The notes under the pieces are model-generated. The model was not told where the DNA came from, did not search any database, and worked only from the letters and a program-made list of their open reading frames with translations. The translations under genes were made by a program, and so were the position numbers. From contig JALVKZ010000147.1 in NCBI GenBank assembly GCA_027033675.1, forward strand, positions 1 to 12,029: a DNA stretch of 12,029 bases, given 5' to 3'. Of this stretch, positions 1-11,011 are shown in pieces (position 1 is the stretch's first letter; the number at the start of each line of letters is the position of its first letter). The stretch is from Pyrodictiaceae archaeon (GTDB lineage: Archaea; Thermoproteota; Thermoprotei_A; Sulfolobales; Pyrodictiaceae).

Positions 1-657
1 AGCGAGTATATAGCCTTCCTCTACGCGCCTAGCAGCCCAATTAACGGGGTCATCGACTTCTATGACTCGGCCACCCGTATCGTAGACAATTGTTCTCGGT
101 CCACAATGTTTACAGCTAATTCCCTGGGCATGGAACCGCCTAATGTTCTCCGGGTCCTCGTAGTCGCGCCTACAATCAAGGCATAGGGGGAAGCCTCTCA
201 TCGATGTATTCTCTCTATCATAGGGAACATCATACATCATCGAGAATCTTGGCCCGCACCAAGCGCAGCTATTCCACGGGTAGCGATAATAACGGGTAGA
301 TGGGTCGTGAATCTCTCTTACACAATGGGGACAAATGCCGAAATCCGGTGGTATCATACTCCTCTTGCTCTTTCTCCTCTCGCTCCGCTTTATCATGAAG
401 CGCTTATAGCCTTTCGGAGAGACCTCTTCTACTTCGAGCTCCTCGATCCTAGCTGGGGGCGGCTTCTCTTCGTAGAGACCTTTGAGAAAACTCTCAAGCT
501 GCCCAGGGCCCCCCTCTACCCATATCTCAACCTCGCTACCGCCAAGATTAATTACGTAGCCGCTTAGCCTCCTAGAGACAGCTAATCTATAGACGAAGGG
601 GCGGAACCCAACACCTTGCACTATTCCCGTGACTCTTAGCCGAATCGCCTTCCTCAA
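1..657 (-). CDS. hypF: HypF, carbamoyltransferase for hydrogenase maturation (5' part only)
   Basis: HypF turns carbamoyl phosphate into a carbamoyl-adenylate and passes the carbamoyl group to the C-terminal cysteine of HypE, the source of the cyanide ligands of the [NiFe] site. Only the N-terminal 219 codons are visible; the gene leaves the window at its left edge. Seen: an acylphosphatase domain with GIVQGVGFRPFVYRLA at residues 11-26, then two zinc-finger units with cysteines at 109, 112, 131, 134 and 159, 162, 182, 185 (CX2CX18CX2C and CX2CX19CX2C), each followed by the family-typical CGPR. The YrdC-like and Kae1-like domains lie outside. I chose the TTG at 657 because an in-frame TAG stands upstream with no ATG, GTG or TTG between, and the acylphosphatase begins directly after it; a GGAGGT lies about 17 nt upstream. 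It is the last gene of hypD-hypC-hypE-hypF, separated from hypE by 170 nt. Confidence 0.95.
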   Translation of the reverse strand, partial: MRKAIRLRVTGIVQGVGFRPFVYRLAVSRRLSGYVINLGGSEVEIWVEGGPGQLESFLKGLYEEKPPPARIEELEVEEVSPKGYKRFMIKRSERRKSKRSMIPPDFGICPHCVREIHDPSTRYYRYPWNSCAWCGPRFSMMYDVPYDRENTSMRGFPLCLDCRRDYEDPENIRRFHAQGISCKHCGPRTIVYDTGGRVIEVDDPVNWAARRVEEGYILA

Positions 658-827
658 CGTATAAGCACCGCAGGACCTCCAGGGGGCCTAGGAGTGCTCG
701 TTTTCGTTCTCCACGCCAGGGGTTATGCTAGTGACAAAGAGGAGTTATTGCTCGTATCTCCTAGCTATGAGATAGATTATACTCTTCACTATGCTTCGAA
801 ACCGCTGCCTTGCTTTTGCCAGTTTTG

Positions 828-1889
828 TTAGCATATGCGTGGCACTATTTCGCCGCTCGGTGGCTCGAGTATCCGCACCCCGCCCGTCACGCTTCTCAGC
901 AATACCCTACCAGCGTGTCTTGGATCCTTAGCCTCGTATACCTGGCCTATTATACTAGCCTCTTTGTAGCCAAGGCTATGGATATACTCCAGTATCTCCT
1001 CTGCCCTGTCTCCCTGCACCGCGAGTACTGCTGCTCCCTCGTTAGCTAGGCTGAGAGGGTCTACTCCCAGCATCTCCGCGTATTCCTTCACCTGCGGCCT
1101 TATCGGTACCTTCTCTTCCTCTATTACTATTACTGTCTTGGTTTTCTCTGCCCAGTCATTGACTAGCATCGCTATGCCTCCACGGGTCGGGTCGCCTGCA
1201 CCATGTATGTATGGGCGATACTTCTCTAGGAGTGGGAGCATGAGGCTTGTTAGGGGCCTCACATCGCTCTCAACGTCGAACTTCACCCCTATCGATTGCT
1301 GTGCAGCCAGTATTGCTGCCCCATGGTCGCCCACGTACCCTGTCACGATTATCTTGTCCCCAGGCCTTATCTCGCGATCATCGATTGGCTTCCCCTCTAC
1401 TATCCCTATACCCGTTGAGGATATCACTATCCCATCTACTTGGCCCTTTGGCATCACTTTGAAGTCTCCACCTATTATTGCTACATCGTTGCTAGTAAGG
1501 GTTGAAACATAGCTGTCTATGATCTTCTTTAGCTGCTCCGTAGAGAACCCTTCCTCAGCAACTATCGCGTCAAGAGCAGCCACGGGCCGGGCGCCAGCCA
1601 TTAGGAGATCGTTTATAGTGCCACTTGCAGCTAGTTTCCCTATGTCGCCTCCGGGGAAGAATATCGGCTTAACAGTATAGGAGTCAATGGTAACCGCTAT
1701 GTACTTGTCCCGGGCTATGGGGATGAGCGCCGAGTCATCCAGCGCGTCTAGCCCCGTCCCGCCCTCAACTCTCCAGTACTTAGGCGGAACCGAGTCCACT
1801 ATTAAGTGCTTAATTAAGTCCTCTGTCTCTTTCCCGCCAGCACCATGGGCAAGTGTTAGTAGTCGCCAGAGCCTCACATACCAAGTCAC
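828..1889 (-). CDS. hypE: HypE, carbamoyl dehydratase / cyanide donor for [NiFe] hydrogenase
   Basis: HypE uses ATP to dehydrate the carbamoyl group placed on its C-terminal cysteine by HypF, giving a thiocyanate that supplies CN to iron on the HypC-HypD complex. Seen: N-terminal LAHGAGGKETEDLI, the IDSYTVKPIFFPGGDIGKLA segment followed by GTINDLLMAGARP, the GDPTRGGIA nucleotide-binding segment, and the decisive last residues VPRIC just before TAA, so the acceptor cysteine is present. These are hallmarks of the PurM/AIR-synthase-like HypE family. At 353 aa it is slightly longer than usual; the extra residues are at the N terminus (MTWYVRLWRL). The GTG start at 1889 overlaps the hypC stop as GTGA, indicating translational coupling; a GTG four codons further in is an alternative. 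Cytosolic; partner of HypF, HypC and HypD. Confidence 0.97.
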   Translation of the reverse strand: MTWYVRLWRLLTLAHGAGGKETEDLIKHLIVDSVPPKYWRVEGGTGLDALDDSALIPIARDKYIAVTIDSYTVKPIFFPGGDIGKLAASGTINDLLMAGARPVAALDAIVAEEGFSTEQLKKIIDSYVSTLTSNDVAIIGGDFKVMPKGQVDGIVISSTGIGIVEGKPIDDREIRPGDKIIVTGYVGDHGAAILAAQQSIGVKFDVESDVRPLTSLMLPLLEKYRPYIHGAGDPTRGGIAMLVNDWAEKTKTVIVIEEEKVPIRPQVKEYAEMLGVDPLSLANEGAAVLAVQGDRAEEILEYIHSLGYKEASIIGQVYEAKDPRHAGRVLLRSVTGGVRILEPPSGEIVPRIC

Positions 1890-2164
1890 TTAGGCTCACC
1901 CTTCTCTGACCCAATGTACTCGAAGAGCTGACTAGCCTTTGTCTCGAGGTCCTCTATGAACTCGTTTATTGCCTTGACTAGCTCCTCTGCACGCTCCGGC
2001 TTAAGCTTCTCAATAACGACTCCAGCGTGTACGATGACTATGTCGCCTGGCTTAAGGTCCTCGTAGGCGCCGCCATAGACTTCACGTAGAACGCCGTCGC
2101 CGAAATCGACTAGTACGATGTCGCCCTTTACCTCTTTTACTTCAGCCGGGATACCTAGGCACAC
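1886..2164 (-). CDS. hypC: HypC/HybG-type hydrogenase assembly chaperone
   Basis: A 92-aa small chaperone that binds HypD, carries the Fe(CN)2CO unit and hands it to the hydrogenase large-subunit precursor. Seen: the family signature MCLGIPAEV at the very N terminus, with Cys2 as the iron/HypD-binding residue once Met1 is removed, a beta-barrel-like core, the GDIVIVHAGVVIEKL segment and a helical tail. The start is a GTG at 2164, fixed by the need for Cys at position 2. The stop overlaps the hypE start by 4 nt. The gap of 121 nt to hypD upstream leaves room for a separate promoter; a tandem GCATCAT pair lies in it near 2218-2232, of unknown meaning. Confidence 0.97.
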   Translation of the reverse strand: MCLGIPAEVKEVKGDIVLVDFGDGVLREVYGGAYEDLKPGDIVIVHAGVVIEKLKPERAEELVKAINEFIEDLETKASQLFEYIGSEKGEPK

Positions 2165-2285
2165 GCCTATCCAGCCCCCTACTCTCCTAGGGCACTCCCC
2201 CTTACTTAATCAATAGGCATCATGCATCATAGCAACGGAGAAGTGAATAAATGAGCGAATGGGAATAAGCATGACCACTTCGTTG

Positions 2286-3518
2286 TTAGACTATTCCCAG
2301 GCTTCTCGCTATGTCCTCTGCTAGTCCTCCACCACCGAACCTCGCCCATACAGCGCATGTGCCCTCGCTACTAACCATACATGGCCCGTATGGTGTGCCC
2401 GGTGTACAGGTCTTCATGAAGTGTGGACAATCAGTTGGCTTCGCTAATCCAAGAGTTACCTCAGCGCATTTACACCCTGGCGGTAGGTCGTACTTCCATT
2501 CCTCAGGGCTTAGCTCCTTTATGCCGTACTGGTGGAAAGCATCAACTGCTCTATACTTCTCGCGGAAAGCTAACCCGCTCTCTGGCACGAAGCCTATACC
2601 ACGCCATGCTGCGTCAACTACTTCGCAACATTCACTTATCTGTTGCTGCGCAGTAACATTACCCTCCCACGTGACTACTCGTGCATACTCATTTACTAGT
2701 CGAGGCTTACCCTCGATGTGTTGCCGCAGTATCTCGAGGACAGCTAGTAGTACGTCTACTGGCTCAAAGCCAGCGACAACAGTCGGTATACCATAATCGT
2801 CTACTACGAATTTCCATGCACGGGCACCAACAATTGTGGAGACATGGCCTGGCGCAATAACTCCTCTTATAGGATTGTCGCGGTGGGTTTCGAACGTGTA
2901 CCTCATTATGGGGGGTGTTAGGCGGTGAACATTGATTATCGTGAGGCTCCTTGGTACATGACCCTTAACGACGGGAGAGGCGGTTGAGGGAGCCGTTGTC
3001 TCGAAACCTACCGCGAAGAAAACGCTCTCCTTGTCATCCTCCCTTGCCATACGTATGGCGTCAAGGATACCATAAACAACGACAACATTGCCTCCAGCAG
3101 CCCTAGCCTCCTCGAGGCTACGTATATCCTTGCCCCGTTTACCAGAGCCAGGAAGCTTATATGCATCACCAAAAGTGAACACCCTTATGCCCTCGAGGCT
3201 CAGCTTTATAGCAACATCAACATAGTATGCTGGTGTAATGCAAACTGGGCAACCAGGACCAGCTACGAGTTCAACCTCCGGGGGCATTAGGCTACGGAGA
3301 CCGAAGTGCGTAATTGTATACTCGTGGGTGCCACAGAAGTCCATTATCTTTATTGGTGACTGCCCTGTCTTCTCTACAGCCTTGGGAGCCAGCTCGTGTA
3401 TCTTCTTAACAATCTTCCTAGCGTACTCGTTTCTCCGCAGGAATTCCTCGAGCCTCTTGATAAGCTCTGCTCCGCCTCGCTGCAAGACTAGTGCACCACT
3501 CCACTTAGCCCGGAGCAC
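2286..3518 (-). CDS. hypD: HypD, iron-sulfur scaffold of Fe(CN)2CO assembly
   Basis: HypD, with HypC, is the platform on which CN and CO are attached to iron. Seen: DFCGTHEYTI around Cys62, AGPGCPVC with Cys90 and Cys93 (redox/iron-binding cysteines of the family), GFETTAPSTA in the middle, and the C-terminal 4Fe-4S region with cysteines in GCKCAEV, DCPHFMKTCTPG, GPCMVSSEGTC. All hallmark cysteines are present. At 410 aa it is longer than the roughly 350-380 aa usual for the family; the excess is mainly N-terminal. The stretch begins with GTG at 3518; a TTG at 3485 (residue 12) is an alternative start giving a more typical N terminus. It lies 44 nt downstream of pantoate kinase on the same strand and could be read through from it. 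Confidence 0.96.
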   Translation of the reverse strand: MLRAKWSGALVLQRGGAELIKRLEEFLRRNEYARKIVKKIHELAPKAVEKTGQSPIKIMDFCGTHEYTITHFGLRSLMPPEVELVAGPGCPVCITPAYYVDVAIKLSLEGIRVFTFGDAYKLPGSGKRGKDIRSLEEARAAGGNVVVVYGILDAIRMAREDDKESVFFAVGFETTAPSTASPVVKGHVPRSLTIINVHRLTPPIMRYTFETHRDNPIRGVIAPGHVSTIVGARAWKFVVDDYGIPTVVAGFEPVDVLLAVLEILRQHIEGKPRLVNEYARVVTWEGNVTAQQQISECCEVVDAAWRGIGFVPESGLAFREKYRAVDAFHQYGIKELSPEEWKYDLPPGCKCAEVTLGLAKPTDCPHFMKTCTPGTPYGPCMVSSEGTCAVWARFGGGGLAEDIARSLGIV

Positions 3519-5847: not shown

Positions 5848-6269
5848 ACGGGCTCAGTTCCGCGAGGAGGCTTGCCAGCGTACTGGACAGCGTCCTCGAG
5901 GTCGCGGAAGACCCTAACGCACAGCCTCTTGCGGCCACGGAGCCTCATTTTTAGCGGAACGAGGTAGTAAACGCTCCCTGTGAACGGGTCATCGGGTACC
6001 CAGAGCACGAGTATACGGTATCCTGTCTCGGCCACTGCTAGCTCCGTGGCCTTGGATATTAGGGGCCTAGCCTTGTCCCCGCATGCTCTCATGCGTGGCA
6101 CTTCTAGCTGGTATGGCGGCTGCTGCCTCTTTTCGTAGACGCGTCCACGGCCAGCGATCCACACTGTTACCGCTGCTGTGCCCCCGGGTAGTAGGCGCTC
6201 CTCTTCCTCCGCTATCTCTATTGGTTCAAGTTCCTCCTCGGGCTCGAGCTCTGGCAGCTCGAGCGCCAA
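5844..6269 (-). CDS. uncharacterised 141-aa protein with acidic N terminus
   Basis: Not recognised. Residues 4-25 are almost entirely Glu, Pro, Leu and Ile (ELPELEPEEELEP and IEIAEEEERLL), a probably disordered acidic segment. The remainder looks like a compact alpha/beta fold rich in Arg and Val, with YRILVLWVPDDPFTG and VYYLVPLKMRLRGRKRLCVRV as the most strand-like parts; two cysteines (in MRACGDK and RLCVRV) are not spaced as a metal site. No signal peptide or membrane segment. That it is a real gene is supported by a good TATA-like element just upstream, lack of any competing frame, and a 4-nt stop overlap with coaBC. The assigned start is TTG at 6269 after a GGGGG; the promoter spacing is short for it, so translation may begin further in. 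A role in CoA metabolism cannot be inferred, because it converges on coaBC. Confidence 0.7.
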   Translation of the reverse strand: MALELPELEPEEELEPIEIAEEEERLLPGGTAAVTVWIAGRGRVYEKRQQPPYQLEVPRMRACGDKARPLISKATELAVAETGYRILVLWVPDDPFTGSVYYLVPLKMRLRGRKRLCVRVFRDLEDAVQYAGKPPRGTEPV

Positions 6270-6284
6270 GCCCCCTTCCCCAGC

Positions 6285-6298
6285 GTATATAAGTTCTA
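6285..6298 (-). promoter_or_regulatory. BRE/TATA-like promoter of the 141-aa gene
   Basis: On the minus strand the sequence reads TAGAACTTATATAC, a good archaeal BRE plus TATA. Its TATA centre near 6289 is about 20 nt from the TTG at 6269, so initiation 26 nt downstream would fall near 6263. This suggests a leaderless transcript or a start slightly downstream of the assigned one. Confidence 0.55.
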
Positions 6299-6365
6299 GG
6301 CGTCTCTTGTGGTTATAAGCATAGCCGATGGATTTGATTAGTCTAGTGATAATAGTACGGTACTA

Positions 6366-7271
6366 CTAGGCCTGCCTAGCTCGCCAAGCAACACCATTCT
6401 CCGTGGCCAGGGGCTCTACTAGGCCCTCCTCCTCTAGCCACGCTACTACCGAGACGAGGGTTGTTCTATTAAGGAGTAGCTGGCGGGGATTAGGCTCTGC
6501 AGCGGATAGATCTCGAGTCGCTAAGTAGGCTAGCTTGTCCAGGGTTAGTGGGCCGCGCTCCCTGATGGCTCCTAGTACGTACTCCCTTACCCTCTTCACA
6601 GCCTGTATGTTCGCGTCTATCATCGCTACCGCTCTCTTCGCTTCAGCCACAGGGCCGTGGCCAGGCACTATCCTGTAGCCAGCTTCTGCTAGTTCTCTTA
6701 GCCTTGCTAGGCTCTCTAGCCATTCTCTTAGATCAGCTGCAAAGGGTATACCGAACCTAGCCAATACTCTTTCGCCGAGAACCGCGTCGCCCGCTGCAAC
6801 TACCTGGTCGTCTTCGATAACGATGCCGCTGTGACCATACGTGTGTCCGTGGAGGTCTAGGCTCCGGATACCCGGTAATACTTCCTCGCCCCATCCGAAG
6901 GTATTGGTTACTCTTAGGGCTGCTGGCGGCATGGCTGCTAAGGCCTCCGAGACAATACCGCCATATACGACATTGAACCTCGCCTTGACGCTCTCTACCA
7001 GGGCTAAGCAGAGCCGATGCGCGTGAACCCCTGTATCGGAGCCGAGCAAACCGGGGGCTGCCGCTAAGTGATCGGTGTGGCCATGCGTGAGCACTATGTC
7101 CGTTAAGCCGAGCCCAAGGCTTCTTAGTGTCTCTGCTATTGTCTTGTCGCGGTCAGCCCCTATACCAGGGTCAATAACGGCTACGCGGTCACCGAGGTCA
7201 ACGATGACGGTATTAGGGCTACCCGGTACAAGCCATGTATGCTCTCCGAGGCGGCGAGGCTTCCTAGCCAA
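6366..7271 (-). CDS. metallo-beta-lactamase-fold hydrolase with C-terminal winged-helix-like region
   Basis: A 301-aa cytosolic MBL-superfamily protein. Metal ligands seen in order: THGHTDH at residues 62-68 (His63, His65, Asp67, His68), GHTYGH around His143, the bridging Asp in AAGDA at 162, and PGHGP with His205. This is the glyoxalase II-like/YcbL-type ligand set for two metals. The last ~80 residues (from about 218, NIQAVKRVREYVLGAIRERG onward) resemble the helical or winged-helix tail found in LACTB2-like MBL proteins; SVVAWLEEEGLVEP reads as the wing region. A thioesterase/hydroxyacyl-glutathione-hydrolase-like reaction or a nuclease are both possible; substrate cannot be told. The start is TTG at 7271, soon after GCTAGGGA. 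It stands alone on this strand downstream of the TnpB island, whose right end may supply or disrupt its promoter. Confidence 0.88.
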   Translation of the reverse strand: MARKPRRLGEHTWLVPGSPNTVIVDLGDRVAVIDPGIGADRDKTIAETLRSLGLGLTDIVLTHGHTDHLAAAPGLLGSDTGVHAHRLCLALVESVKARFNVVYGGIVSEALAAMPPAALRVTNTFGWGEEVLPGIRSLDLHGHTYGHSGIVIEDDQVVAAGDAVLGERVLARFGIPFAADLREWLESLARLRELAEAGYRIVPGHGPVAEAKRAVAMIDANIQAVKRVREYVLGAIRERGPLTLDKLAYLATRDLSAAEPNPRQLLLNRTTLVSVVAWLEEEGLVEPLATENGVAWRARQA

Positions 7272-7325
7272 TCCCTAGCACCTAGCCTCAGCCTACAAGC
7301 GTCTCAGTGAAAAGCCCTTACGCTA

Positions 7326-7453
7326 CCCCGCAAATGGTACAGCGGGGAAACTAAATCAGCGAACCCGGATCTATGACTAGGACTTGCGGGCAGCTCACCC
7401 GCCTGACGCCGGGGAAGCGCCCCGCCGTAAAGGGAGGGATGAGGGCGGGGTCC
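7326..7453 (-). ncRNA. candidate TnpB guide (omega/re)RNA scaffold or right-end hairpins
   Basis: Three strong foldbacks lie just downstream of tnpB: CCCCGC/GCGGGG (7326-7331 with 7342-7347), GCGGG/CCCGC (7386-7390 with 7398-7402) and CCCCGCC/GGCGGGG (7420-7426 with 7444-7450), the last in competition with CGGGG/CCCCG around 7410-7424. GGACTT (7380-7385) can also pair with GGGTCC (7448-7453), two pairs being G-U. TnpB elements carry their guide RNA scaffold and right-end hairpins at exactly this place, downstream of and on the strand of tnpB. The identity as a guide RNA, its ends and its strand are inferred; I did not recognise a specific family. Confidence 0.42.
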
Positions 7454-7468
7454 ATAAAGGGTTAAGCG

Positions 7469-7485
7469 AGATTTTACAGAAATCT
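7469..7485. terminator. small hairpin abutting the tnpB stop
   Basis: AGATTT and AAATCT form a 6-bp stem with a 5-nt loop directly after the TAA stop of tnpB. On the tnpB strand it is not followed by a clear run of T, so it may be part of the downstream RNA scaffold and not a terminator. Confidence 0.25.
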
Positions 7486-8607
7486 TTAGGCTTGCCTCAG
7501 TGTTTTTAATGCTATCAAGTACGCTGATGCTACGTGTTTATCTAAGCCTAGTCTTTTCATAACCTTATTATGTATAGCGCTGTGTGATGTTCCTTTAGGG
7601 TTCACGTGAATAGTTTTTATACTGTATAGAGGGGTTTTATATGTAATAGTTTCTATTATTTTATTTCTAAATATTGATATTTTATAATTATAGTTTTTTG
7701 ATTTTCCCTCTCCATTTTTAACCCAATAGTATCTTAGGTAACCAATTATTTTTGGATCCTCTAAGGCTATGAGAGAGACCCCGTGATAATAAGCATAGCT
7801 TAGCATTTTATGTATTGCTTGGTTTATTCTTGTCCAAGCTTGCCTTCCCTTATATCCATGGCTTATTGTTTCGCTAAACCAGAAGGTCTTTGTATCTCTT
7901 AATCTTCCGTATTTATCTACTATAGCTAAGTTAATCCTATCTACATTAACATCTACACCACCAACATGGTCACCAAGAGGTTCACCATATTTTTTCATGG
8001 TATAAATGTAGAAGTCGTATGGTACCATGACTTGTAAATGACAATAGAGATGCAGGCTGCCCTTGTAGAAATTATGTTCCTTTATCACTACTCTAGCTGG
8101 ATAGCCAATTTCCTTATTTATAGCTTTATCGGTGAGTGCTTGTAGTAATTTTCGGTAGCCCTTTGGTATCTTAAGCTTTAGGTCTATTCTCCTTATTTCT
8201 TTTCTCTTATCTATTACTAATATCTCAATCCTATTTGATGATAATAGTCTTATATTAAGATTACCTTTCTTTTCTCTTTCTGCTTCACTTTGAAATAATA
8301 ACCATTCCCCCAGTTCTATATCTTTTATATTAACCCCTAACCTCCTTGCGCTCTTAATTGTTGAATGTATTAACACTGCAACTCCATCTATATATCTACG
8401 ATTAGGCATAATCTCGTAGCATCTTGTACGGGCATACTTAAGGAAATTGGTTTGTGATAGCTCAATAAGCTTATTGTTAGTCTTTATGTCATTGAGCAAT
8501 CTGTGCGCACACAGCTTGAAGAGCCATGAGGTCCACCAAAGTAGTCTGGCCTTCTCTTCCTTTGCCGAAAAAGGTATATTTATAGCAAGGTATTCTGGTA
8601 GCCTCAT
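7486..8607 (-). CDS. tnpB: TnpB-like RuvC nuclease (OrfB, IS605 family), zinc finger absent
   Basis: A 373-aa member of the TnpB/OrfB group, RNA-guided DNA nucleases encoded by IS200/IS605 elements. The RuvC catalytic triad is complete: Asp219 in GGVDVNVDRINLAIVD, Glu283 in LIALEDPK and Asp356 in RLGLDKHVASAYLIAL. Unlike typical TnpB there is no CxxC...CxxC zinc finger between Glu283 and Asp356; that stretch (HVNPKGTSHSAIHNKVM) has no cysteine. The N-terminal half (about 1-210) is basic and presumably forms the wedge/REC-like region. The ATG at 8607 follows a TATA-like palindrome. Base composition is visibly AT-rich with A/T-ending codons, unlike both neighbours, a sign of recent transfer. 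There is no frameshift or internal stop, so it could be active. No tnpA is nearby. Confidence 0.85.
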   Translation of the reverse strand: MRLPEYLAINIPFSAKEEKARLLWWTSWLFKLCAHRLLNDIKTNNKLIELSQTNFLKYARTRCYEIMPNRRYIDGVAVLIHSTIKSARRLGVNIKDIELGEWLLFQSEAEREKKGNLNIRLLSSNRIEILVIDKRKEIRRIDLKLKIPKGYRKLLQALTDKAINKEIGYPARVVIKEHNFYKGSLHLYCHLQVMVPYDFYIYTMKKYGEPLGDHVGGVDVNVDRINLAIVDKYGRLRDTKTFWFSETISHGYKGRQAWTRINQAIHKMLSYAYYHGVSLIALEDPKIIGYLRYYWVKNGEGKSKNYNYKISIFRNKIIETITYKTPLYSIKTIHVNPKGTSHSAIHNKVMKRLGLDKHVASAYLIALKTLRQA

Positions 8608-8616
8608 AGCCTCTCA

Positions 8617-8635
8617 TAGGGGGTATATACCCCTA
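8617..8635 (-). promoter_or_regulatory. TATA-containing palindrome upstream of tnpB (promoter or left-end hairpin)
   Basis: TAGGGG (8617-8622) pairs with CCCCTA (8630-8635); within it GGGGTATATACCCC is a perfect 14-nt palindrome. GTATATAC is centred about 20 nt before the tnpB ATG and could serve as its TATA box for a leaderless message. A subterminal palindrome of this kind is also what IS200/IS605 transposases bind at the left end. Either role is inferred. Confidence 0.45.
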
Positions 8636-8648
8636 AAACTTTATAAAC
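8636..8648 (+). promoter_or_regulatory. strong archaeal BRE/TATA promoter for the structured RNA
   Basis: AAAACTTTATAAAC matches the crenarchaeal BRE (purine/A-rich) plus TATA pattern very well in the plus orientation. The TATA centre near 8643-8644 predicts initiation close to 8670, exactly where the GC-rich foldable segment begins. The TTTATAAA core is itself a palindrome and could also act toward tnpB on the minus strand (predicted start near 8617), but the BRE side is better on plus. Confidence 0.6.
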
Positions 8649-8670
8649 ATTATGTTATTCAACTAAAGTA

Positions 8671-8813
8671 GATGGTGGGCCCTGGCCCCAAGAGCCGTGG
8701 TGGAGCCGCGGTGAGGGGGCCAGGGCGTCGCCGTGATGAACCCAGCCGTGCTGGATAGGAAGTAGAGGTGAATCATGAAGGCACGGTTGGGGGAACGGTC
8801 CACAAGGCGGCGA
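8671..8813 (+). ncRNA. candidate structured RNA of unknown class
   Basis: No protein-coding frame is evident, but the segment folds strongly. Stem 1: GCCCTGGCCCC (8679-8689) pairs perfectly with GGGGCCAGGGC (8716-8726) over 11 bp; inside it CCGTGG (8695-8700) pairs with CCGCGG (8706-8711) around a TGGAG loop, and the junction AAGAG opposite TGAG could form tandem G-A pairs as in a kink-turn. Stem 2: CCCAGCCGTGC (8741-8751) pairs with GCACGGTTGGG (8781-8791), 11 bp with one G-U, around a purine-rich 29-nt loop. Stem 3: TCGCCG (8728-8733) pairs with CGGCGA (8808-8813) and closes stem 2. A strong promoter precedes it and a pyrimidine-rich tract (about 8818-8843) follows, suitable as an archaeal termination region. 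It does not show the conserved core of SRP RNA or RNase P RNA, nor a C/D or H/ACA layout. A structured leader of the following gene is the main alternative. Confidence 0.55.
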
Positions 8814-8864
8814 ATATCTCCCATTTATCTTCTCTTGGTCTCTATGAGTGGAGAGTAGTGGGCT

Positions 8865-9692
8865 ATGAGTAGCCGGGATGAGTGGGGCTGGCTTGGTAAA
8901 GCGTTGCGAAGCGTGCTTGACTCGGAGCTACGGAGATGGGGAGGCTTAAGACTCGTTGATGCTTTCATTGGTCCCCATTATTCTTATGTAGAGTTGGATG
9001 GTGGGTGGTGCGGAGTAGCTTATTCTCCTAGGGAGACTGGGCGGGTCGTAGAGGAGCTAGAGCATGCTACTCCCCGGTATCTTGCTCGGCTCGTTGAGCG
9101 CGGCCTCGGGGGCGGGGCTGCTTCGCTCGCGCTAGCCGCTGCAAATGCCGCCACAATGGCGTGGATCTACGAGACCCCGGATCCACCAATTCTTATCGAG
9201 GCACGTCTCAGCGATTTCATTGAGCTGCGCAGCGACGATGTTGTAGCAGTTATTGGCTTCATGAGGGGGGCTGTAGAGGAGTTGGCGAGCAAGGCGAATA
9301 AGGTCTATGTTATAGAGCTTAGTGAGGAGCTAAGACAAGAGGCCGGCGGTATTAGTGACATAGAGGTTCTCGGCGCTGAGGACGGCATGAAGGTTCTCCC
9401 CCAAGTATCCGTGCTGGTGGCGACTGGTAGCGCACTCCTCTACCCAGCTATATTCCGACAACAACTAGCCAAGGCGGGGAATGCCCGAGAGAGAGTCATC
9501 GTTGGCCCTACGTCTAGTTTTCACCCACGCCTAGCAAGGCTCCTAGGCCTCACGGGGCTCGGCGGAGTATACATTGATCCATCGCTTTGCAGGATTCTGC
9601 GATGGCATGTTGCAGGTGGAGGAGGGATTCATAGCCTTAGGCGCCGGGGCTCCAAGGCCCCCTTGCTCCCAAGGTTCTTTGCCAAGGCCTAG
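8865..9692 (+). CDS. DUF4213/DUF364 domain protein (putative heavy-metal chelation family)
   Basis: A 275-aa cytosolic protein. The N-terminal part, GLRLVDAFIGPHYSYVELDG then GVAYSPRETG, fits the DUF4213 (enolase-N-like) domain. The C-terminal part, VVAVIGFMRGAVEEL then VYVIELSEEL, VLVATGSALLYPAIFRQQL and VGPTSSFHPRLARLLGLTG with GGVYIDP, fits the Rossmann-like DUF364 domain named for putative heavy-metal chelation. The biochemical role of this family is not established. The last ~30 residues are basic and glycine-rich (AGGGGIHSLRRRGSK). The start is ATG at 8865; an earlier ATG at 8844 runs into TAG after four codons. A weak TATA-like CATTTATCTT near 8822-8831 could give it its own short-leader transcript, separate from the structured RNA upstream. 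Its stop overlaps that of the convergent radical SAM gene. Confidence 0.8.
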   Translation: MSSRDEWGWLGKALRSVLDSELRRWGGLRLVDAFIGPHYSYVELDGGWCGVAYSPRETGRVVEELEHATPRYLARLVERGLGGGAASLALAAANAATMAWIYETPDPPILIEARLSDFIELRSDDVVAVIGFMRGAVEELASKANKVYVIELSEELRQEAGGISDIEVLGAEDGMKVLPQVSVLVATGSALLYPAIFRQQLAKAGNARERVIVGPTSSFHPRLARLLGLTGLGGVYIDPSLCRILRWHVAGGGGIHSLRRRGSKAPLLPRFFAKA

Positions 9693-11011
9693 GCTTGTGC
9701 ACGCATACCCCATTCACGGAAAGCATTTACACCCATGTATATTCCACGCTGCATTACATGGAGTAGATAAAGGCTCTGAGGCTGCCTTATCTCGTAGCAC
9801 ATGCTCCCCAATGGCTCTTCGCCGAGCAAGCGCAGCACGGATGATATGAGCGAGACTACTTTCGCCGCATCATCCCCGAATCTCTCAATTACCTCGCGTG
9901 GGCAGAATCTTAGCCCGAATAGCTGTGTCGACAAGTAGTAGAGCAGATCCTCGCTGGGCGTGACCTCGATGCCCCGGATGGCGGAGAACCCTCTCTCATA
10001 TACTAGCTTCACGTACTTATTGACGCTGAAGGTGTTAACGTAGACGTATTTCCCGAGACGCGCTATCCCGCTAAGACCTATCGCGAAGAACTTGTCATAG
10101 TCTACTATGTACTCGTCGACGAGCTCCGAGCCCTTGTCCATGCACCAGGGAGTAGCTGGCCTATAGCCATGCCTAGCTGCTTCCTCGAGAATCGTTTCAT
10201 AGAGTAGCCGCTCGAGTGGGTGCCAGGGCCCCTCTCTCCTGCGTCTCTCGTACTCTCGTAGCCCCGGCGCCGGCATTAAGGGATAGAATGTCACCTGGTC
10301 TGCGCCTAGCTCCAGAGCCTTGCTCGCCTCCTCGCGTATTGTCTCAAGTGTATCGCTCCTCACACCCCACAACATGTCTATGTTAAGGGTCTTGAACTTG
10401 CCCCTCGCAGCCCTAACCGCCTCTAGGGAGTGCTTCACGCCATGATGAAGTCTTCCAAGCTCCCGGAGCCTATCGTTGCGTAGTGCTTGTACACCTATGC
10501 TGAGCCTGGTTACTCCTACTGAGCGCAGAACGCTGACAGCCTCATCGTTTATGTCTAGGGGGCTGGCCTCTGTAGACACGCTTATGGCTCTTCCATAGTA
10601 GCTGCGAAGAACATCTATGAACTCTGCTAACGAGTATACGTTTATTGACGGTGTTCCGCCACCTATGTAGACCACTTGTATTCTCGGATTCTCGGCGATC
10701 GTCGCTAGCCACTCAGCCTCCCTCTTTATAGCAGCCATGTAGTCAGCATAGGCTTTTGGCTCGAACGCGTACCGTACAAAGCAGCAGAACTTGCATAGCG
10801 GTGTATGGCAGAAGGGCATGTGAACATAGAGCGCGTAGTCCCCTGGCTCAAGAGATGCGAGATACTTGACATGTCTCTCCTCGTCAAGGCTACTTGCCTC
10901 AACCTTCTTAAAGAAGTTCTCCACTCTTTTTGTCACTAGTTGGCCAAGCATTTTGCCTATTAGCTGTATTGTTTGAGGAATACTGAGGGTGTTCCTAGGA
11001 TTTGTCAGCAT
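9689..11011 (-). CDS. HemN/HemW-like radical SAM protein with CX4CX2CC cluster motif
   Basis: A 440-aa member of the coproporphyrinogen III oxidase-like radical SAM group. Seen: YVHMPFCHTPLCKFCCF (cysteines 68, 73, 76, 77), the SAM-binding VVYIGGGTPS around 114-122, STEASPLDI at 146-154, RLSIGVQAL at 169-177 and FYPLMPAPGLREYERR; these follow the HemN/HemW order. The cluster motif is CX4CX2C in place of the CX3CX2C usual in radical SAM enzymes, with a fourth adjacent cysteine. Function is unclear: archaea using the siroheme-based heme route do not need HemN, so this may be a HemW-like heme-handling protein or another radical SAM enzyme. The start is ATG at 11011, with an ATG at 10951 (residue 21) as an alternative; an AAAATAAAC element just upstream (11025-11033) is a plausible TATA box. 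The stop overlaps DUF364 by 4 nt. Confidence 0.88.
   Translation of the reverse strand: MLTNPRNTLSIPQTIQLIGKMLGQLVTKRVENFFKKVEASSLDEERHVKYLASLEPGDYALYVHMPFCHTPLCKFCCFVRYAFEPKAYADYMAAIKREAEWLATIAENPRIQVVYIGGGTPSINVYSLAEFIDVLRSYYGRAISVSTEASPLDINDEAVSVLRSVGVTRLSIGVQALRNDRLRELGRLHHGVKHSLEAVRAARGKFKTLNIDMLWGVRSDTLETIREEASKALELGADQVTFYPLMPAPGLREYERRRREGPWHPLERLLYETILEEAARHGYRPATPWCMDKGSELVDEYIVDYDKFFAIGLSGIARLGKYVYVNTFSVNKYVKLVYERGFSAIRGIEVTPSEDLLYYLSTQLFGLRFCPREVIERFGDDAAKVVSLISSVLRLLGEEPLGSMCYEIRQPQSLYLLHVMQRGIYMGVNAFREWGMRAQA

Follow-up and report, generated by a model that had tools for sequence, protein, structure and literature searches.

The compact nuclease Cas12f takes its guides from CRISPR arrays. 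In excerpts of the literature, on which the citations here and below rest, TnpB guides are processed out of the 3′ part of the transcript that encodes the nuclease (PMC10278001). IS607 TnpBs have measured G-rich target-adjacent motifs (TAMs), AGGAG and GAGGG, and one of them, ISFba1 TnpB, is encoded upstream of its RAGATH-18-derived right-end element RNA (reRNA) (PMC11061315). In the IS607 TnpB system of Xylella ISXfa1, the nucleotide beside the right end belongs to the scaffold, and insertion occurs at a matching dinucleotide (PMC10711439). Here we describe a mobile element in a 12,029-nucleotide stretch of contig JALVKZ010000147.1 from a Pyrodictiaceae archaeon (GCA_027033675.1); this whole stretch is referred to as the window. 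We consider it probable (about 0.83) that an omegaRNA/reRNA is encoded here, with its scaffold at positions 8669-8798 and its guide in the bases that follow, and that its partner is a divergently encoded TnpB/Cas12f-like protein. The RNA most likely guides this compact, CRISPR-ancestor-like nuclease back to the element's own DNA site. It seems to have its own promoter, which points away from the nuclease gene, unlike in the known relatives.

The locus departs from the known IS607 TnpB/omegaRNA kind because its putative guide RNA looks like a separate, divergent gene that often stands alone. Unlike ISFba1, its RNA lies behind its own TATA box and its protein has no zinc ribbon. The RNA is not RAGATH-18 by Rfam, because all Rfam families were unmatched. 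ISXfa1 is alike in its matching dinucleotide and in its right-end nucleotide within the scaffold, whereas the position of the RNA and its kink-turn differ here. The protein is like Cas12f in fold, but the guide here would be the flank of the element.

Results

A conserved, structured RNA

A preliminary description of the window, made from the letters alone, proposed a structured RNA behind a TATA promoter. The promoter string AAAACTTTATAAAC begins at 8635, one base ahead of the 8636 given there, and holds the TATA box TTTATAA. Folding of 8670-8798 yielded −74.7 kcal/mol, compared with a mean of −47.1 (standard deviation, 3.6) for dinucleotide shuffles (z, −7.7; 0/200 equalled it). Stem 1 (8679-8726) and stem 2 (8741-8751 with 8781-8791) were borne out. 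However, a proposed third stem (8728-8733 with 8808-8813) was rejected because its partner lies past the border at 8798, in flanking DNA that varies between copies; the closing helix that is conserved pairs 8731-8734 with 8795-8798. A kink-turn was rightly suspected, but it sits at the base of stem 2 and not at the stem 1 junction. The RNA is also real but not isolated: it is part of a mobile element with a divergent nuclease gene, and a guide-like variable tail follows it after 8798 (Table 1).

A scan of the window for tRNA and tmRNA found none. Its Rfam search returned two chance-level matches (E 4.7 and 6.1), neither of which overlaps the RNA. In 18 further loci the RNA was also unmatched, with one 5S rRNA and three tRNAs as the only matches above the gathering threshold. 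Therefore, tRNA, tmRNA, and the known Rfam classes were rejected for this RNA.

Compensatory changes support the proposed structure. In a 23-sequence MAFFT alignment we tested 14 pairs, 7 of which belong to the helix P1 and were chosen by hand. Paired cells made up 88.7% (shuffle mean, 79.2), two-sided changes occurred in 8 of the 14 pairs (shuffle mean, 4.8; 2/500 shuffles as high), and covariation was 0.258 (shuffle mean, 0.119; 0/500 as high). All pairing measures dropped when the partner was shifted by 1 to 3 columns. Within P1 every one of the seven pairs changed on both sides, and 79.6% of cells were paired. MAFFT plus RNAalifold on alignment A1 gave the seven kink-turn pairs only, and the P1 pairs were added by hand afterwards.

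The order of canonical stem (C-stem), 3-nt bulge, GA, noncanonical stem (NC-stem), and GA is the kink-turn consensus. With its tandem G.A, it could be fitted in 53 of 62 RNAs by a finder that demanded GA or AA, paired C-stems, and at least five NC-stem pairs; several of the nine RNAs without a fit are visibly related irregular forms. All 208 of 208 paired C-stem cells are built in by the finder, and information comes only from the NC-stem and from how the types of C-stem pair vary. Among 52 distinct RNAs, C-stem pair 1 is C-G in 46 and G-C in 6, and pair 4 is U-A in 48, C-G in 2, and U-G in 2. NC-stem cells paired with their own partner in 365 of 416 cases (mean 271 and maximum 297 in 1000 strand swaps). 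The bulge is GAU in 36 of the 53 fitted RNAs. When copies of the family are lined up, they share the 5′ hairpin, then a CCGTGATGA-like motif, a stem, and a GGTGAACGG-like motif. Past ACGG, the sequence differs from copy to copy. In the 53 fitted RNAs, the base that follows the scaffold is T in 40 and C in 13.

Irregular RNAs were seen at L208, L209, L217, L218, L222, L225, L231, and L233, mainly in Caldivirga and Ignisphaera (e.g., CCGTTGAGAAG...CTGAGAAACGG), and several of them have one more hairpin within their 5′ domain.

The scaffold ends at the border of a mobile element

Window positions 6201-7454 and 8797-9800 adjoin in two genomes of the same genus, G004 (locus L002; 93.6%/91.0%) and G001 (L003; 93.1%/91.2%). 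The empty site in both reads GGGCGGGG/TCCACAGGGCGGCGAAT, i.e., GGGG/TCCACA (slashes mark junctions or element ends). The element in the window is flanked by GGGG on the left and by TCCACAAGGCGG on the right, and its final bases are ACGG. Its left border is uncertain by a few bases because GGTCCA stands at both junctions. The insertion is compatible with a GG dinucleotide but ambiguous by 4 bases, with TCCA on both sides.

Genome G044 (1,669,696 bp) has 11 good copies. Two lie in elements with lengths of 1314 and 1316 bp, in which the protein of 7486-8607 is encoded. The other nine, 291 to 313 bp long, retain only the left end, a remnant of the gene's 3′ part, and the RNA with the promoter region. 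In 10 of the 11, GGGG stands directly ahead of the left end. Both flanks of 9/11 copies were found close together in genome G058, and paired flanks of the other two (L021 and L022) were not found there. L029, L030, and L031 have a base-exact junction against G058 (e.g., GAGGGGG/CTCATAATCC), with a GG-type dinucleotide and no target duplication. In these three copies and in the window, the end of the scaffold is, to the base, the border of the element, and the tail matches the empty site's right half. A scaffold that stops with the element and is followed by the right target half has the logic of a TnpB omegaRNA/reRNA. Furthermore, the NC-stem ends 7 nt ahead of the tail and the C-stem abuts it; in an reRNA, a stem-loop is expected no more than about 10 nt from the guide (PMC10278001). 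The G-run just 5′ of the predicted target site is likely the TAM, and GG at 7449-7450 would be the crossover dinucleotide of IS607 type. Within the kink-turn C-stem, the GG that ends the element is paired with CC.

At L207, L212, L214, L219, L226, and L242, the right end is ACGC, not ACGG, and the facing C-stem strand is altered to match. Possibly, these RNAs have a different crossover dinucleotide (GC). A phage origin of the element was also considered and rejected: phages had no blastn match, and 20 stretches of viral contigs fitted a pattern, none of which was confirmed.

Table 1. Features of the window that belong to the element, its nuclease, and its RNA
Feature	Position	Strand	Basis or remark
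GGGG target motif (TAM-like), left of element	7447..7450	+	empty sites in L002, L003
Whole mobile element, about 1348 bp	7451..8798	.	flanks contiguous in L002, L003
373-aa TnpB/Cas12f-like RuvC nuclease	7486..8607	-	fold prediction, alignment
Palindrome GGGGTATATACCCC between the divergent genes	8620..8633	.	relatives have palindromes at a similar place but of different sequence
TATA box of RNA gene	8640..8646	+	32 nt from nuclease start codon; near-palindromic
RNA scaffold (omegaRNA-like)	8669..8798	+	covariance model match, E 5.6e-18 (window is a seed); predicted 5′ end about 8670
5′ hairpin: P1 plus inner hairpin P2	8679..8726	+	folding, covariation
Kink-turn 5′ strand: C-stem CCGU, 3-nt bulge GAU, GA	8731..8739	+	
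Kink-turn NC-stem and loop (8741-8751 paired with 8781-8791)	8741..8791	+	
Kink-turn 3′ strand GA-ACGG; last GG is the element end	8793..8798	+	
Guide-like tail: flanking target DNA, unrelated among copies	8799..8820	+	length assumed from known TnpBs

A divergent nuclease gene accompanies the RNA

The predicted fold of the 373-aa protein has the WED/REC and RuvC parts of a TnpB, and its nearest solved folds are those of Cas12f (9i8y, AsCas12f, and others). D219, E283, and D356, the putative catalytic RuvC triad, are invariant in 15/15 aligned proteins. We name the protein TnpB-like, and not TnpB, because it missed the cut-offs of TIGR01766 and NF040570.

Scanning of genome contigs turned up 58 loci. 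Almost all are archaeal, and most come from Thermoprotei; the outliers were two metagenome-assembled genomes, one of Thermococcus and one of Baldrarchaeota, and a single weak match in Bacillus. For a count of pairing between gene and RNA we used the 43 loci with a 5′-complete gene and enough upstream DNA, leaving out 15 (two with short upstream DNA, seven 5′-truncated, and six distant). The covariance model R1, at E up to 0.05, placed the RNA upstream of the nuclease gene on the opposite strand in 42 of the 43; five among all 43 are R1 seeds. This goes against the norm for a TnpB omegaRNA, which lies at the 3′ end of tnpB on the same strand. The single miss, L231, has a recognizable but irregular copy, and half of the six distant loci, namely L244, L245, and L246, have a divergent match.

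Short matches to only the C-terminal part of the nuclease occur at L064, L065, L067, and L073 (genomes G002, G036, G055, and G050). These are perhaps decayed copies or left ends of miniature inverted-repeat transposable elements (MITEs).

The RNA is widespread and often stands alone

A blastn search of 58 related genomes with 8630-8860 gave partial matches in several and many copies in two. R1 was built from 23 seed sequences, one of them the window with its own match at 8669-8798. This model from relatives, a check that the preliminary description had proposed, matched in 70/197 genomes of the order and 41/74 genera; single genomes had as many as 16 matches. Thirty matches were analyzed as loci: 9 are beside a nuclease gene (one cut by a contig end), 3 are beside a remnant, and in the locus DNA around the other 18 no nuclease gene was found. 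The model had no match in two genomes, although a diverged form of the RNA is visible by eye. Upstream of the distant nuclease relative L063 in genome G037, a diverged RNA with C-stem GGG/CCC was seen by eye, together with solo copies.

The region between the two genes

The promoter region was analyzed in 44 loci, i.e., the 43 five-prime-complete loci and the window. A 7-of-7 TATA match 20 to 80 nt from the nuclease start codon was present in 28 (shuffles: mean 2.7, maximum 9), and a palindrome with arms of at least 5 in the first 45 nt was present in 35 (shuffles: mean 6.6, maximum 12). From the chosen TATA box to the 5′ motif of the RNA the median distance is 31 nt, with a scatter of 15 to 50; three loci had no motif match. 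The TATA box is near-palindromic and therefore may serve both genes. The palindromes of the window and its relatives, which differ in sequence, suggest an operator or, alternatively, a leader hairpin of the nuclease gene. We infer that the TATA box could be used in both directions and that the palindrome could be an operator.

Mobility may be supplied in trans

Neither the window element nor the 1.31-kb G044 elements have room or a gene for a serine recombinase (TnpA) of their own. Across 18 genomes, a serine recombinase (PF00239) was found in 12 and a Y1 transposase (PF01797) in 1. An autonomous G058 element starts with GGGG/CAGAAACATT and ends with GGTAGGGTGAAACGG/, and its left end is that of the RNA elements of G058 and G044. 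Similarly, an IS607 element of G033 starts with GGGG/CTGTTTTCTTTTTGAT, as do the RNA elements of that genome. These canonical IS607 elements also share the right-end module ..AAACGG/ with the RNA elements. They differ in having a serine recombinase and a longer TnpB, with the end module just after the TnpB gene on the same strand. Because left ends are shared with autonomous recombinase elements, mobilization in trans by an IS607 TnpA is likely, as judged from sequence; insertion by G-runs without duplication also suggests it. The window element is a nonautonomous IS607 relative at most.

At L290 (G040:C72, 1-3860), a distant 351-aa relative and its divergent RNA lie directly beside an IS607-type pair of TnpA and a longer TnpB, the end of which reads ..GGGCGGGAAACGC/T.

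Discussion

We propose that a TATA promoter of its own drives transcription of the RNA and that its scaffold would be bound by the TnpB/Cas12f-like protein and probably also by L7Ae at the kink-turn. The complex would cleave DNA made up of the G-run and the guide sequence at element-free alleles, and the element might then be kept or restored by recombination. IS607-type serine recombinases would provide its mobility in trans. Solo RNA copies, which keep the TATA box and scaffold, may supply further guides to the same protein.

Several observations weigh against this interpretation. The curated models scored the nuclease below their cut-offs (NF040570/guided_TnpB, 9.9 of 100 bits; TIGR01766, 15.9 of 32), and a zinc ribbon is missing, with 0 CxxC pairs seen by eye between RuvC-II and RuvC-III in the 15 aligned proteins. 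L021, one of the two nuclease-bearing G044 copies, has GGGT as its left flank. Six of the nine two-flank comparisons of G044 with G058 are not base-exact: in G058, a gap of 29 to 146 bases separates the ends of the aligned flanks of L023 and L025 to L028, and the left junction of L024 carries additional bases. PF00239 was unmatched in G044 and in the window's own genome, G000 (68% complete). Furthermore, transcription, RNA-protein binding, and cleavage are all steps that we infer.

The RNA might instead be mainly a cis element, a DNA or RNA hairpin end recognized by a transposase, with a tail that is plain flanking DNA without a guide role. Ends of elements often have hairpins, and the solo copies (9 of the 11 in G044) resemble ordinary MITEs, which is how the available text of a 2009 Staphylothermus paper treats such repeats (PMC2678158). 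However, we consider this improbable. The TATA box ahead of the RNA is far above shuffles, the helices show compensatory changes, the kink-turn with its tandem G.A is of RNA type, and the RNA is paired almost constantly with a protein of Cas12f fold. Also, to our knowledge, IS607-type recombinases need no 130-nt structured end.

It is even harder to view the system as a domesticated, TldR-like regulator, in which the protein binds without cutting and the RNA targets promoters beside the insertion. The tail of the window copy does lie upstream of the gene at 8865, and solo RNAs are numerous within a genome. Nevertheless, the RuvC triad is invariant in all 15 aligned proteins, and base by base in the window and three G044 copies the tail is simply the flank of a polymorphic insertion, so that selection for a target at another place did not shape these guides. 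That the element acquired a structural RNA of its host, of the box C/D, H/ACA, or signal recognition particle (SRP) type, is scarcely credible. CCGUGAUGA has a kink-turn and a box-C-like RUGAUGA, but the RNA had no Rfam match in the window or the 18 further loci, and it stops at a transposon border and is itself polymorphic between close genomes.

A guide RNA with a gene of its own would make the supply of guides independent of that of the protein, and further guides could come from solo copies. A tentative extension of the omegaRNA/reRNA interpretation, which we consider less likely than not, is a dispersed, CRISPR-like guide set: many solo, promoter-driven RNAs, each with an L7Ae-bound kink-turn, would act in trans as guides for one or two compact nucleases, with a shared two-way promoter and a palindromic operator. 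If so, it would be an intermediate between a transposon omegaRNA made from the nuclease mRNA and independent guide genes of the CRISPR type. Uncoupled guide supply would be a plausible step toward CRISPR, in a large RNA family of hyperthermophilic archaea that is absent from Rfam. The 373-aa nuclease is also small and presumably heat-stable, and its scaffold, TAM, and guide boundary are precisely predicted.

The DNA repeats have been published for one genus. Staphylothermus marinus has 14 MITEs of about 260 nt that are similar to DNA upstream of four IS607-type ORFs, and the available text presents them as DNA repeats only, without an RNA, guide, or nuclease role (PMC2678158). They are probably the RNA and left end of the present family. 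The RNA, its guide, and the divergent promoter were not found in the open-licence literature searched. Among the matches listed there, titles and the starts of abstracts have no mention of a divergent TnpB guide gene, and a search of it for TnpB together with Aeropyrum found nothing.

Elsewhere in the window, 8865-9692 is a DUF364/DUF4213 gene (putative heavy-metal chelation), and the insertion lies in its upstream region. By their sequences, the proteins of 1-3518 resemble the hydrogenase maturation factors HypF, HypE, HypC, and HypD.
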